Shown piece after piece: positions 11,891 to 49,429 of a DNA stretch of 61,610 nucleotides. The translations under genes and the position numbers were made by a program. Location: contig JANXXE010000057.1 of assembly GCA_025350815.1 (NCBI GenBank), positions 1 to 61,610 of the forward strand. Direction: 5' to 3'. The notes beneath the pieces were generated by a model that searched no databases, was not told the DNA's origin, and saw only the letters and a list, made by a program, of their open reading frames with translations. How positions within the stretch are numbered: the stretch's first letter is position 1; each line of letters opens with the position of its first letter. This DNA comes from Myxococcales bacterium (lineage in GTDB: Bacteria > Myxococcota_A > Polyangia > Fen-1088).

Positions 11891-12283
<393 letters not shown>

Positions 12284-12300
12284 GTGTAACTCCTTTTGCG

Positions 12301-12834
12301 TCAAGTGTATTCGGGGGGGGCCGGCTTGGCCAGCCCTTTGTCATTCACGGCGTCGCGGCCCTTGGTCCACAGGCGCCGCAGCCAGCCGCGTTCTTGCTGC
12401 ATGCGCGCCTGCACCTTGAGGATGCCTTCTAACAGGGCCTCGGGGCGGGGCGGGCAGCCCGGGACATAAATGTCGACGGGGATGACCTGATCGATGCCCT
12501 TGAGGACATTGTACGAAAGCTGGAACAGGCCGCCGCAATTCGAGCAGCTTCCCATCGAGATGACGTACTTCGGTTCCGGCATCTGAGCGTGCAGGGTCTT
12601 GATGCGCGTCGCCATCTTGTAGGTGACGGTCCCCGCGACGATGATCAGGTCGGCCTGCCGCGGGGAGGCGCGCGGCGCCATACCGAATCGTTCCAGGTCG
12701 GACCGCGGCCCGCCTGTCTGCATCAGCTCGATAGCGCAGCAGGCCGTCCCGAACAGCAGGTACCAGGCCGAATTCTTGCGCGCCCAGTTAATGACGTCGT
12801 CGACGCGGGTGATGAGGATGCCGTCGTTCTGCAT
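12301..12834 (-). CDS. nuoB: NADH-quinone oxidoreductase subunit B
   Basis: 177 residues, full length for the family. NuoB carries the terminal 4Fe-4S cluster N2 in the peripheral arm of respiratory complex I, next to the quinone site. All ligand motifs are present: adjacent C32-C33 (GTACCAIE), C97 (MGSCSN) and C127 (PGCPPRPE). An extra cysteine, C100, follows C97. The gene stands apart from other nuo genes: its neighbours are an A-type Fe-S carrier (17 bp downstream) and a sulfite-oxidase-like gene (about 40 bp upstream). A TATACT box (complement of 12853-12858) lies 18 nt before the ATG and may be the -10 element of its own promoter. The rest of complex I must be encoded elsewhere. Confidence 0.95.
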
Positions 12835-12873
12835 GGCAGGGTGGAAGCCCGGAGTATACGTCGAATTTGCGGG

Positions 12874-43654: not shown

Positions 43655-43700
43655 TTGACTTGCCGACCTCGGAATCCTATTACTCTTACGTATACGTAAG
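43655..43700 (+). promoter_or_regulatory. Promoter and palindromic operator of the merR-isc operon
   Basis: A sigma-70-like promoter is visible: TTGACT at 43655-43660, a 17-bp spacer and TATTAC at 43678-43683. Right after the -10 lies a perfect 16-bp palindrome, CTTACGTATACGTAAG (43685-43700), ending 10 bp before the regulator's ATG. The palindrome would cover the transcription start, fitting a repressor site rather than the classical MerR spacer position. The most likely binder is the MerR-family protein encoded next, giving autoregulation of the whole operon. An imperfect match (GTATACGT at 12854-12861) lies in the nuoB-erpA promoter region. Confidence 0.65.
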
Positions 43701-43710
43701 GGTTTGAGTC

Positions 43711-44202
43711 ATGGATGTTGCTGCTGACAGTCTTTCTCTCCTGAAGATTGGGGATCTGGCCCGCCGAACGGGAAAAACCGTCCGGGCGATTCATCTATAC
43801 GAGGAACTGGGGCTTCTGACGCCGGCCGTCCGCTCGAAGGGCGGTTTCCGTTTGTACTCGGGCCGCGCGGTCAAGCGCATCGACTGGATCCAGAAGCTGC
43901 AGGACATGGGCTTTTCGCTGACTGAGATCAAGGCGTTCCTGCGCGTGTGGGAAGAAAGCGCGACCGCGCCCAAGGCGATGGCGACGGTGCGGGAGATTTT
44001 CGCGGACAAGCTGCGCGAGACGCGCGAGACCATTTCGCGCCTGGGTCGACTGGCCGCCGAGCTGTCCGACAGCCTGGAATATCTGGATAGCTGCCGGTCG
44101 TGCGAGCCCGTGCACACGCAGCCCGAGTGTGGCACCTGCGAGTTGCACGGGCATGAGGGCAAGTCCGCCCCCCTGCTGGTGGACGGAATCACGAAGCACT
44201 GA
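43711..44202 (+). CDS. MerR-family regulator heading the isc operon, with C-terminal Cys4 motif
   Basis: 163 residues. The N-terminal MerR winged helix (about 10-80) shows [26 protein letters not shown] and [13 protein letters not shown]. The dimerisation coiled coil covers about 88-125. The C-terminal tail holds C128-x2-C131 and C140-x2-C143, followed by HGH (146-148); the spacing could hold an Fe-S cluster or zinc. It occupies the place where the Rrf2-type regulator iscR usually starts the operon. By position it should adjust isc expression to cluster supply, but a zinc or iron sensor is also possible. The gene ends 8 bp before iscS. Confidence 0.85.
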
Positions 44203-44210
44203 GCATCAAC

Positions 44211-45428
44211 ATGGCGATCAAACTTCCCATCTACATGGACAATCACGCGACCACGCCGCTGGATCCGCGCGTGCTGGACGCCATGCTGCCGTACCTGCGC
44301 GACAATTTCGGCAACGCGGCCAGCCGCTCGCACGCTTTCGGATGGGCCGCCGAAAAGGCCAGCGAGGATGCGCGCGAGCAGGTCGCGGCGTTGATCGGTG
44401 CCTCCGGCAAAGAGATCGTCTGGACGTCGGGTGCGACGGAATCCGACAACCTGGCGCTCAAGGGTGCAGCCGAGTTCCACAAGGACAAGGGCAATCACAT
44501 CGTTACCGCGCAGACCGAGCACAAGGCGGTGCTGGACACGTGCAAGCGCCTCGAAAAGGAAGGCTTCCAGGTAACGTACTTGCCGGTGGCCGAGGATGGG
44601 CGCGTGCGTCCCGAGGCTGTCGCGGCCGCGCTGACCGACAAGACGATCCTGGTGTCAGTCATGCTGGCCAACAACGAGATCGGCACCGTCAATCCGGTGA
44701 ACGAGATTGGCGCTGTCGTGAAGGCGCGCGGGTGTCTGTTTCATATCGATGCGGTCCAGGGCGTGGGCAAGATCCCCTTCGATGTGAACGCGGCGCGTGC
44801 CGATCTGGTGTCGCTGTCGGCGCACAAGATGTACGGGCCGAAAGGTGTGGGCGCGCTGTACGTGCGTCGCAAGCCGCGCGTCCGCATCAGCGCGCAGATC
44901 GACGGCGGTGGGCACGAAAGGGGCATGCGTTCAGGGACGCTGAACGTTCCGGGCATCGTGGGCTTCGGGGTGGCCGCCGAGATTTGCCGGCGCGAGCTGT
45001 CTGTCGAGGGCCCGCGGATGCTGGCGCTGCGCGAGCGGCTGCGCCAGGGATTGCAGTCACAGATCTCGGACACCTTCGTGAACGGCTCGATGGAGCACCG
45101 GCTGCCGGGCAATCTGAACATCAGCTTCGCGTTCATCGAGGGCGAGGCGATGTTGATGGCGCTCAAGGACGTGGCGGTGTCGTCGGGTTCGGCATGCACG
45201 TCAGCGTCGCTGGAGCCGTCTTACGTGCTGCGCGCGCTGGGCGTCGAAGAAGAGATGGCGCACACGTCGATTCGGTTCGGCATCGGGCGCTTCAACACCG
45301 AAGAAGAAGTCGATTTCGTGATCGATCTCGTCGCCAGAAAGGTCAAAAAGTTGCGGGAGATGTCCCCCCTTTACGAAATGGCGCAGGCGGGGATCGACAT
45401 CAAAAGCATTCAGTGGGCTGCTCACTGA
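44211..45428 (+). CDS. iscS: Cysteine desulfurase IscS
   Basis: 405 residues, PLP enzyme that takes sulfur from cysteine and passes it as persulfide to IscU. PLP lysine K206 is in [11 protein letters not shown], and the mobile catalytic cysteine C329 is in [11 protein letters not shown], both as in E. coli IscS. The N-terminus [21 protein letters not shown] and the C-terminal [18 protein letters not shown] (IscU/partner-binding tail) are conserved. Second gene of the operon, followed by iscU after 32 bp. Confidence 0.97.
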
Positions 45429-45460: not shown

Positions 45461-45868
45461 ATGGCGTATAGCGAAAAGGTACTGGACCACTACGAGAACC
45501 CGCGCAACGTGGGCAGTCTCGATGTCAATGATCCCAACGTCGGTACGGGTCTGGTGGGCGCGCCGGCCTGCGGCGACGTGATGAAGTTGCAGCTACGGGT
45601 CAATGACCAGGGCGTCATCGAGGACGCCAAGTTCAAGACCTTCGGATGCGGGTCGGCCATCGCCTCGTCGTCGCTGGCGACCGAATGGATCAAGGGCATG
45701 ACGGTCGATCAGGCGATGGCGGTGAAGAATACGCAGATCGTCGAGGAACTGAACCTGCCGCCGGTCAAGATTCACTGTTCTGTGCTGGCCGAAGACGCCA
45801 TAAAAAGCGCCATCGAGGACTACAAGAAGAAGCAGGGCGCGCGTGGTGGCAAGGATCAGGTCGCCTGA
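45461..45868 (+). CDS. iscU: Iron-sulfur cluster scaffold IscU
   Basis: 135 residues. Cluster ligands C37 (GAPACGDV), D39, C63 (KTFGCGSA), H105 and C106 (KIHCSVLAED) are all present. The LPPVK motif recognised by HscA is at 99-103. It is a typical group I scaffold that assembles 2Fe-2S with IscS and hands it on with HscA/HscB help. An AAGGGAG ribosome site lies 11 nt upstream of the ATG. The C-terminus has a short basic extension (KKKQGARGGK). Confidence 0.97.
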   Translation: MAYSEKVLDHYENPRNVGSLDVNDPNVGTGLVGAPACGDVMKLQLRVNDQGVIEDAKFKTFGCGSAIASSSLATEWIKGMTVDQAMAVKNTQIVEELNLPPVKIHCSVLAEDAIKSAIEDYKKKQGARGGKDQVA

Positions 45869-45902: not shown

Positions 45903-46238
45903 GTGGCCGTTGCCGTCAGTCTAAGAGCCGTCGCAGAGATCAAGAAGGCCGCCGCCAAGCGCGCGGCTGCACCGAAAGGTTTGCGCGTCGGGATCCGCGG
46001 CGGGGGGTGCACGGGATTTTCCTACCTGTTCGAGTGGTCGGACATTGATCCGCGGGCCGAGGACAAGGTGCTGACGTTCGAGGATGACAGCGTGCGGGTG
46101 TTCATCGATCCGAAAAGCCTTTTGTACCTGGAGGGCTCGACGCTGGACTACGCGACGTCCGTCATGGCCCGCGGGTTCAAGTGGGTCAACCCGAATGCCA
46201 AGGGCTCGTGCGGCTGCGGCGAGAGTGTTCAGTTCTAG
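45903..46238 (+). CDS. iscA: A-type iron-sulfur carrier IscA
   Basis: 111 residues from GTG at 45903, with AGAGGA 5 nt upstream; the frame is open further up but that would overlap iscU. Ligand cysteines C36 (GGGCTGF), C103 and C105 (CGCG) are in place, and the middle motif VFIDPKSLLYLEGSTLDY is typical. It accepts clusters from IscU and/or holds iron. A second A-type protein lies next to nuoB at 11891. Confidence 0.95.
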   Translation: MAVAVSLRAVAEIKKAAAKRAAAPKGLRVGIRGGGCTGFSYLFEWSDIDPRAEDKVLTFEDDSVRVFIDPKSLLYLEGSTLDYATSVMARGFKWVNPNAKGSCGCGESVQF

Positions 46239-46265: not shown

Positions 46266-46883
46266 ATGTCGATGATCTGCTGGTCGTGTGAGAAGAACGC
46301 AGGCGAGGGCTTGCTGTGCGTCGGATGCGGCGCGATCCAGCCGCCCTTTGCCGGGGTCGACCATTTCGCCGTCCTGGGCGTCGAGCGGCGCTTCGACCTG
46401 GACCTGGCCGTGGTCGAGGCGCGCTACAAGGACCAGGCGCGGATCCTGCACCCTGACCGATACGCCCGGGCCGATGCGCGCGCCCGGCGGGCGTCGTTGC
46501 AACGGGCGGTGCAGTTGAACGAGGCGTGGCGGACGGTGAAGGATCCCGTCAAGCGGGGCGAGTATCTGCTGTCCTTGTGGGGCGGCACGGCGCAGGTCGC
46601 GGTGGCGCCGGGCCTGCTGATGGAAGTGATGGAACTGCGCGAGGCGCTGGCAGAGGCGCAGGCGGCGGCAGATCACGGGCGGGTGGCGGCGTTGGCGATG
46701 GACGTACGGGGCCTGGAAGCGCGTGCCCTCGGGGCCGTTGCGGCGGGCTTTTCACGCGGACTTGCGGCGGCGGATGACATCGCGCGGGCGTTGGCGGCCG
46801 TGCGCTACTACCAGCGGTTCGCCGAGGAAGTGGCCGTCCACGAAGAGGCGCACGCAGGTGCGGCTGTGGTTCATGGCGGTTGA
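46266..46883 (+). CDS. hscB: Co-chaperone HscB with N-terminal zinc-finger extension
   Basis: 205 residues. An N-terminal Cys4 motif (C5-x2-C8 ... C18-x2-C21) precedes the J-domain (about 30-100) with its HPD at 62-64 in [12 protein letters not shown]. The C-terminal helical IscU-binding domain follows (about 110-200). HscB brings IscU to HscA and stimulates ATP hydrolysis. The tetracysteine extension is absent from E. coli HscB but is known from human HSC20. The last codons overlap the hscA start by 11 bp, so they are translationally coupled. Confidence 0.92.
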
Positions 46884-48858
46884 GGCGCTGTTCGATATCT
46901 CGGAGCCCGGCCAGGCCCGGGCCAAAGAGGCCTGCAAGGGACGGGCGGTCGGGATCGATCTGGGCACGACCAATTCCCTGGTGGCAGCGGTGCAGGCGGG
47001 GCAGCCTGTTTGTCTGCGCGGGCCGGAAGCCGGCGCGTCGGTGGTTCCATCGGTGGTGCACTATGCCGCCGACGGACACGTGGTCGTCGGGCAGACGGCC
47101 CGGGATGACCTGGCCCCGCGCTTTGCGCAAGACACGATTGCGTCGGTCAAGCGATTCATGGGCCGTGGCCCGCAGGACGCCGAGGCGACACGGCGCCTGA
47201 CGCCGTATCAATTTGCGCCCGCTGCCGGTGAACCGTCGCTGGTGCGCTTTGTGGTGGCCGGCGGATCGCGGCTGGTGACGCCCGTCGAGGTGTCCGCCGA
47301 AATCTTGCGCGTTCTCAAGGCGCGCGCAGAGGCTGACCTTGGCGGCGAACTGGACGGCGTGGTCATCACGGTGCCGGCGTATTTCGACGATGGTCAGCGA
47401 CAGGCGACGCGCGATGCGGGGCGTCTGGCGGGTCTGGACGTCCTGCGCCTGTTGAACGAGCCGACGGCGGCGGCACTGGCGTATGGCCTGGACAAGCAGG
47501 CGGAAGGCACCTTCGCGGTGTTCGACCTGGGCGGTGGCACCTTCGACGTATCGATCCTGAAGCTTGCGCGGGGTGTTTTCGAGGTCAAGGCGACCGGCGG
47601 TGATTCGGCGCTGGGCGGGGACGATTTCGATCGCTTGATTGCCGGGCATCTGTTGCAGGCGATGGGTCTGCCGGATGACGGCGGCGGTGATCGGTTCCTG
47701 GTGCGCAGGGTGCTGGACGCGGCCCGCGCCGCGAAAGAGGCGTTGACCGAGGCGCCCGACATCGCCGTCGTGGTGGAACGCCCGGGTGGCGGCACGTGGC
47801 GCGGACAGCTGGATCGCGCACAGATGGAGGCGTTGGTCCGGCCGGTGCTGGATCGCTGTGTTCGTCCGGTGCGGCGGGCTTTGGCCGATGCCGGCGTCGC
47901 GGCCGCGGATCTGACGGGCGTGATTCTGGTGGGCGGGGCGACGCGGATGCCTCTGGTGCGTGAGTTTGTGTCGACGCTGTTCGGGCGCGAGCCGTTGCAT
48001 GACATCGATCCGGACGAGGTCGTCGCCCTGGGCGCGGCGATCCAGGCGGATATTTTGGCCGGGGGCAGCGGCCGCGACGATGTGGTCCTTCTGGATGTCG
48101 TGCCGCTGTCGCTGGGCCTCGAAATGATGGGCGGCGTGGCGGAGAAGCTGATTCATCGCAACACCACCGTGCCCTGTGGGGCGACGCAGACCTTCACGAC
48201 CTATGCGGACCGGCAGACGGGATTCGATCTGCACGTGGTGCAGGGCGAGCGCGAATTGGTCGCCGACTGTCGATCGCTGGCCCGCTTCAAGCTGACGGGG
48301 ATTCCGCCCATGGCGGCGGGCATGGCGCGTCTGGAGGTGACCTTCCTGGTCGACGCCGACGGGCTGTTGCGGGTCTCGGCGCGCGAGCAGACGACGGGCA
48401 AGGAAACCGCCATCGAGGTCAAGCCGAGTTATGGTCTGACCGACGACGAAGTCGAGCGCATGTTGCTGGATTCGTTCGCGCACGCGGAAGACGACGTGAA
48501 GCTACGGTCACTGACCGAGCAACGGGTCGAAGCCGAGCGCATTCTGGCGGCGCTGCGTGCGGCGATGGTCGACGCACCTGAATTGTTGGCCGATGCGGAC
48601 AGGCAGGCCGTGGCGGCCGCGGTGCGTGTTCTGGAGACGGCCCGCGCCGGTACGGATCATCTGGCCATTCGCGCGGCGATCGAGGGGCTGGATGCGGCGT
48701 CGAAGGATTTCGCGACAAAGCGGCTCGACCGCGCGCTGGATGTCGGGCTTCGGGGTCAGGGCGTGCGCGCGGTGGAGGCCAGGGTCGACGAGTCAGCGAC
48801 GGCCAAGGGAACCACGGCGGGCGTGAAGCGCTCGCATGCCGGACACGAGCACGGATAA
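46873..48858 (+). CDS. hscA: Hsp70-type chaperone HscA
   Basis: 661 residues from ATG at 46873, inside the end of hscB. Nucleotide-binding domain begins [12 protein letters not shown], with [53 protein letters not shown] and [12 protein letters not shown]. The substrate domain has [14 protein letters not shown] and a helical lid. It is specialised for IscU (LPPVK motif) rather than general folding. The last ~25 residues are His/Gly/Lys-rich (RSHAGHEHG). TAATG overlap with fdx. Confidence 0.96.
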
Positions 48859-49235
48859 TGCCCAAGATCAGATTTCAGCCGGAGGAGGTCGAGGTCGACG
48901 TGGCGGTGGGAACGACCATCCTGGACGCCGCGCGGGCGCGGGGTGCGCAGGTCGGTTCGGCCTGCGGCGGTGTGTGCGCCTGCTCGACCTGCCACGTATA
49001 TGTGAAGGAAGGTCTCGAGGATCTTTCGGAGGCGGGCGAGCGCGAGGAAGACATCATGGACAAGGCGTTCGATGTGCGCGCGAATTCTCGCCTGGGATGC
49101 CAGGCCCAGTTGCGTAAGGATCGCCTGTATGTCGTCGAGGTCAGCCGCGAATGTCGGCAGGCATTTCTCGACGAGCATCCGGAGGTTCGTCAGGCGCTGG
49201 CCGAGGCCGCGCGGCGCGGGAGTGTCGCCCCATGA
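48858..49235 (+). CDS. fdx: 2Fe-2S ferredoxin of the isc operon
   Basis: 125 residues, adrenodoxin-type. Ligands C36-x5-C42-x2-C45 and C81 (SRLGCQAQL), plus an extra C40 in GGVCACSTC. It supplies electrons for cluster assembly on IscU. The first 105 residues fit the family, and about 20 C-terminal residues are extra. The start overlaps the hscA stop (TAATG) and its own stop overlaps iscX (ATGA), so the three are coupled. Confidence 0.95.
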   Translation: MPKIRFQPEEVEVDVAVGTTILDAARARGAQVGSACGGVCACSTCHVYVKEGLEDLSEAGEREEDIMDKAFDVRANSRLGCQAQLRKDRLYVVEVSRECRQAFLDEHPEVRQALAEAARRGSVAP

Positions 49236-49429
49236 CCTGGACGGACGTGCGTGAGATTGCCATCGCCCTTTACGAAGGCCACCCGGACGTGCGGCCATTG
49301 GAGGTGCGGTTCACGGATCTGCACAAGTGGGTGCTGGCGTTGCCCGGCTTCACGGGCGATGCGCACAAGTCGAACGAAAAGATTCTGGAAGCCATCCAGA
49401 TGACCTGGCTGGACGAAGCCGAGGGCTGA
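49232..49429 (+). CDS. iscX: IscX, small acidic IscS-binding protein
   Basis: 65 residues with the whole IscX pattern: MTWTDVREIAIALYE, then VRFTDLHKWVLALPGF and SNEKILEAIQMTWLDEA. IscX binds IscS and iron and tunes the rate of cluster assembly. The start overlaps the fdx stop by ATGA. Last gene of the operon, 3 bp from the convergent GDT1-like gene. Confidence 0.95.
   Translation: MTWTDVREIAIALYEGHPDVRPLEVRFTDLHKWVLALPGFTGDAHKSNEKILEAIQMTWLDEAEG

Follow-up and report, generated by a model that had tools for sequence, protein, structure and literature searches.

In many Myxococcota, as well as in another phylum, a regulator of the MerR family seems, judging from its sequence context, to bind just behind the promoter of the genes for iron-sulfur (Fe-S) cluster assembly, and these bacteria appear to have evolved a feedback switch of their own instead of the textbook IscR. 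The window, the whole stretch of 61,610 nucleotides analysed from a Myxococcales bacterium, contains an isc operon in the order merR-iscS-iscU-iscA-hscB-hscA-fdx-iscX, of which merR is the first gene, its stop codon lying 9 bp from the start of iscS. The MerR protein is, with a probability of roughly 0.6, a dedicated autogenous repressor of isc with a four-cysteine (Cys4) tail that takes an Fe-S cluster. The features of the operon are:

43655–43683, + strand, isc promoter: -35 TTGACT at 43655–43660, 17-bp spacer, -10 TATTAC at 43678–43683 (sequence reading, conserved arrangement)
43682–43703, + strand, predicted 22-bp operator ACTCTTACGTATACGTAAGGGT (sole exact match in the genome; conserved before merR orthologues in two phyla)
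43711–44202, + strand, merR, MerR-family regulator of 163 amino acids with a C-terminal CxxC-x8-CxxC tail (Pfam, fold match, cysteines)
44211–45428, + strand, iscS, cysteine desulfurase (TIGR02006 and PRK14012 over cut-off)
45461–45868, + strand, iscU, scaffold (TIGR01999 over cut-off)
45904–46238, + strand, iscA-like A-type carrier (PF01521, TIGR00049; start probably the GTG at 45904)
46266–46883, + strand, hscB, co-chaperone (HSCB_C, DnaJ; N-terminal CxxC...CxxC segment)
46874–48858, + strand, hscA, chaperone, start uncertain (ORF, HscA-like sequence)
48858–49235, + strand, fdx, [2Fe-2S] ferredoxin (PF00111; TIGR02007 below cut-off)
49151–49429, + strand, iscX, ORF as listed, the true start probably lying inside it (PF04384 and TIGR03412 over cut-off)

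The product of merR matched the Pfam families MerR_1 (PF13411), MerR (PF00376) and MerR-DNA-bind (PF09278) over their cut-offs. An AF2 model revealed a normal MerR fold with a single long helix (residues 86–128), and Foldseek matched the model to CadR, CueR and SoxR; Pfam, model and Foldseek thus agree on a winged-helix DNA-binding domain followed by a dimerisation helix, as expected of the MerR family. No Rrf2 domain was found in the protein with Pfam or NCBIfam. The only cysteines are at positions 128, 131, 140 and 143, forming a tail directly C-terminal to the dimerisation helix, a part of the model in which AF2 confidence is low. The open reading frame, the Pfam matches and the residue positions confirm the initial annotation, which had described a MerR gene with these four cysteines before iscS. 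CueR, CadR, PbrR, ZntR and MerR are closest by sequence and fold and have operators of 21–22 bp; however, the window protein lies far below the NCBIfam cut-offs (the best of the CueR, ZntR, CadR and MerR equivalogs was CueR, with 79.9 bits against a cut-off of 147.4), has no metal-efflux target, and its operator lies outside the promoter spacer. The NCBIfam SoxR model scored 50.1 bits against a cut-off of 116.9. SoxR shares the MerR fold and the placement of four cysteines after the dimerisation helix, whereas its cluster motif is CX2CXCX5C and it is an activator responding to a redox signal with no link to isc or suf; the protein described here has CxxC-x8-CxxC and the promoter geometry of a repressor (PMC8063818).

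Linkage of merR to iscS and retention of the cysteines were read from the sequences of relatives. The MerR protein had a match in 38 of 59 relatives, and iscS was the next gene in all 30 of the loci fetched. In an alignment of 20 rows the four cysteines were invariant, as were the residues P154 and G159 that follow. Named genomes were scanned as well, and the best 80 of 213 relatives were nearly all Myxococcota, including the cultured Enhygromyxa salina; several metagenome-assembled genomes labelled Klebsiella or Bifidobacterium are best read as mislabelled, the labels being implausible. Among these 80 loci iscS followed merR in 78, with one of the others at a contig edge and one with suf genes next, and CxxC-x7..9-CxxC was kept in 79. 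The suggestion that related genomes be searched for a four-cysteine MerR beside iscS was therefore answered positively. Of 285 genomes surveyed in the phylum, 102 encoded an IscU that passed the curated cut-off, 89 encoded this MerR protein and 81 encoded both; the two were adjacent in 80 of these 81 genomes, and SUF was found in only one of the 81. An isc operon without this MerR was found in 21 genomes of the survey, two of the loci being cut by a contig end. In one sister family (f29) an Rrf2 protein with three cysteines is encoded directly before iscS in four of the loci read (L184, L185, L192 and L197), and in another family (f28) the gene before iscS encodes an adenosine deaminase in two loci (L187 and L189). 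One phylum thus offers a natural comparison of two regulators, MerR-Cys4 and Rrf2-Cys3, that occupy the same place in the operon. Two further loci (L166 and L168, in genomes G091 and G120) read merR-iscS-iscA-hscB with no space for iscU, and both genomes also contain SUF.

The genome of the window was searched for the regulator and machinery that might otherwise be expected. No Cys3 Rrf2 IscR was present among its two Rrf2 matches, and no SufB/D was found. The first match (L001), with cysteines only at 21 and 68 and located near sulfate-transport and siroheme-type genes, and the second (L002), the winged helix-turn-helix of a YihY-like membrane protein, were both rejected as a hidden IscR; the neighbour names were read from the sequences and not from a family search. 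Control of SUF by MerR in this genome was likewise rejected, no SUF having been found. It had been proposed that MerR stands in place of IscR, and that an Rrf2 IscR elsewhere in the genome would speak against it; MerR heads isc, and the genome search for a Cys3 Rrf2 supports the proposal.

The perfect 16-bp palindrome CTTACGTATACGTAAG reported behind the -10 box is present at 43685–43700, recurs before orthologues far above chance and is the core of the 22-bp operator. Besides the end of the -10 box, the operator overlaps the site at which transcription is expected to begin and a Shine-Dalgarno-like AAGGG. The isc promoter was not called in a consensus promoter scan of the window because the scan demands T at the last -10 position; the claim for the promoter rests on conservation of the -35, 17-bp spacer and -10 arrangement across orthologous loci. 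The operator consensus is ACYCTTACGTnnRSGTAAGRGT, a 22-bp dyad, and one frame fits all sites, so that a division into two types, a 16-bp overlapping and a 22-bp operator, was rejected. In upstream DNA outside the set from which the consensus was drawn, an operator with at most two mismatches preceded merR in 54 of 58 independent loci, with none for the reversed-pattern control. No operator was recognisable in two loci, L250 and L112. The L112 orthologue also has its first cysteine pair altered (CDSLC).

The position of the operator bears on the mode of control. In MerR activators the spacer is 19–20 bp and the operator lies inside it (PMC9909328), a geometry that is typical of the family, not required for membership, and that was found neither in the window nor in most relatives. 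Of the promoters with an operator, 62 of 83 had a 17-bp spacer as called by a finder that mildly prefers 17–18 bp and permits 15–21, and in 77 of the 83 the operator was behind the -10 box or flanked the promoter, outside the spacer. In many of these, another operator immediately precedes the -35 box, about 72 bp from the first. Since the operator lies behind or flanks a normal promoter with a 17-bp spacer, repression is indicated rather than untwisting of the MerR type, and the promoter-operator geometry is, as far as sequence can tell, that of a repressor. The reading of repression from an operator after the -10 box is thereby supported across loci. A classical activator that untwists the promoter and turns isc on in response to a signal would agree with the MerR fold and with the 22-bp dyad, a length known for some MerR activators (PMC5045206); it is very improbable given spacers of 17 bp and an operator that falls outside the spacer at 77 of the 83 promoters.

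The targets of the putative repressor were sought by pattern matching. The 4.5-Mb genome of the window contains one exact match to the palindrome and operator, that at the isc promoter, which is the outcome of the genome scan that had been advised, and other operator-like sites with two to three mismatches were at control level. In 24 genomes, all but two stray cases among the listed matches with at most one mismatch were at the merR promoter. The target list of the operator is thus predicted to be essentially the isc operon itself, and the wider regulon envisaged in the initial annotation is not borne out, the operator occurring almost only at isc in the 24 genomes and as a single exact match in that of the window. 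That regulon had been suggested by an imperfect match in the nuoB-erpA promoter region. The octamer GTATACGT does exist there (12854–12861), although no 22-bp operator with three or fewer mismatches accompanies it; it was rejected as an operator, the remainder of the 22 bp being absent. The octamer is located 20 bp upstream of a nuoB-like gene, after which follows an erpA-like gene for an A-type carrier (region 11891–12834, - strand).

A second form of the system was found in the phylum Candidatus Eisenbacteria, where 27 of 47 genomes encode a MerR orthologue. In L088, the one named locus with suf genes next, merR is followed by genes for an A-type carrier, sufC and sufB, and sufC was within 1.5 kb downstream of merR in 25 of the 27 loci; of the other two, L233 breaks off behind the carrier gene, and in L250 merR is followed by iscS. 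The four cysteines were kept in all 27 loci, and the operator was found with at most one mismatch in 21, at most two in 25 and at most three in 26. The combination of MerR-Cys4 and operator at the head of a SUF operon was seen in L088 and L224–L249. In a tree, the ISC-linked, SUF-linked and NifS-linked MerR proteins formed one clade apart from paralogues, with moderate support. Since the regulator keeps its operator whether ISC or SUF is the machinery behind it, the function common to both forms is, on this comparative reading, control of Fe-S biogenesis, and this is the strongest single argument for the proposal. It also speaks against a neighbourhood that persists by descent only, with isc not controlled by MerR, which is the least probable of the readings considered: the operator is kept before the operon across two phyla, it is nearly absent from other places in 24 genomes, and the module occurs at SUF too.

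The SUF loci bear in addition on what is sensed. A sensor of sulfane sulfur or persulfide, the tail cysteines of which respond to the IscS product or to polysulfide, would fit the position of merR beside the desulfurase gene in Myxococcota and a further family (f52) in which merR is paired with a NifS-like gene alone. In Candidatus Eisenbacteria, however, where merR heads SUF operons, its neighbours are the genes for the A-type carrier, sufC and sufB. Since an A-type Fe-S carrier, not a desulfurase, is next in these loci, an Fe-S signal is favoured over sulfur sensing, which we regard as improbable.

The ligand of the Cys4 tail is likely, on context and analogy, to be an Fe-S cluster, with zinc as the main rival. 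A cluster is favoured because of the linkage to two Fe-S machineries, the analogy with SoxR, IscR, RisR and SufR, and the lack of a metal-transport target. To our knowledge, SoxR is the only known cluster-binding protein on the MerR fold. Zinc stays in play because the tail is shared by paralogues found in other contexts. Such paralogues, with about 30% identity and encoded outside Fe-S operons, were found in four loci (L178, L180, L182 and L183), the neighbours being folE and a LON-domain gene in L183, a LON-domain gene in L180 and an AAA gene in L178. In one family (f41), second merR copies in seven loci (L164, L167, L169, L170, L172, L173 and L177) encode a Cys4 tail and are accompanied by altered dyads (ACGTTAACGT-like). 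In L167 and L170 the second copy has a deoxynucleoside kinase gene just upstream. Since paralogues away from Fe-S genes share the Cys4 tail, the tail alone is no proof of an Fe-S cluster, and from the distribution of these sequences the tail is older than, or wider than, the Fe-S link. The rival holds that the same isc or suf repressor carries structural or regulatory zinc in the tail and that the signal is zinc, thiol redox, or sensed elsewhere. In its favour count CxxC-x8-CxxC itself, which is also a common zinc pattern, the nearest solved structures, which belong to metal sensors (CadR and CueR among them), and the occurrence of Cys4 paralogues near folE, the product of which is a zinc enzyme. 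We nevertheless consider it unlikely, as MerR is tied exclusively to Fe-S machineries, of two different kinds, the operon contains no gene for metal transport or efflux, and the cysteine that precedes the dimerisation helix in metal-sensing MerR proteins is absent.

The sequences themselves show the gene linkage, the four cysteines, the operator in a repressing position, its single target and the move of the module to SUF in another phylum. How the Fe-S repressor binds and represses, which ligand it carries and in which direction it signals we infer as follows. Working like IscR or RisR, to which it is unrelated, a MerR dimer would bind the 22-bp operator over the -10 box and start region and block RNA polymerase; in some relatives two operators about 72 bp apart would flank the promoter. 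The Cys4 tail, at the place of the SoxR cluster, would receive an Fe-S cluster built by the products of the operon itself, and the holo form would repress isc as long as cluster supply is sufficient. Iron limitation or oxidative stress would lead to loss of the cluster and lift the repression. With an operator of 22 bp and a target list of one, the proposal is directly testable.

The merR gene resides in an assembly operon and has a conserved operator at its own promoter, as expected for a dedicated regulator of Fe-S biogenesis. Only two protein families are listed for this role in the reviews consulted, Rrf2, which includes IscR, and DeoR, which includes SufR (PMC8593673). Like IscR of E. coli, MerR is encoded by the first isc gene, has a cysteine-rich C-terminal part and is expected to exert negative feedback on its own operon; unlike IscR, it belongs to the MerR and not the Rrf2 family, has Cys4 after the dimerisation helix in place of Cys3-His, and no wider regulon was seen for it. 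SufR, also an autogenous repressor dedicated to this task, has four cysteines in a C-terminal site and an operator that is a palindrome, although its DNA-binding family is unrelated and its cysteine spacing and operator are different (PMC8593673). In the same phylum, RisR of Myxococcus xanthus controls Fe-S biogenesis operons and binds a palindromic site; in contrast to MerR, which is encoded with isc where suf is absent, RisR is a Cys3 protein of the Rrf2 family that is encoded alongside suf and regulates the isc and suf operons alike, and the paper describing it makes no mention of MerR (PMC9973013). No MerR protein at the head of isc or suf turned up in our literature search, outside which most subscription journals lay. 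Autogenous control of Fe-S biogenesis is therefore already known, and it is the MerR family that is new to such control. On balance we expect that the protein represents a third, independent family of Fe-S homeostasis repressors, a portable MerR module that is coupled to ISC in Myxococcota and to SUF in Candidatus Eisenbacteria. It would also be the first Fe-S sensor on the MerR fold to follow cluster supply and act as a repressor, not as a redox-responsive activator. If so, the same feedback was invented again on the MerR fold, and a large part of the Myxococcota, without IscR at isc and without SUF, could control their only cluster factory in this manner.

The HscB protein of the window has an N-terminal four-cysteine segment, CWSC-x9-CVGC (46266–46360), for which there was no Pfam match and which is reminiscent of eukaryotic HSCB.
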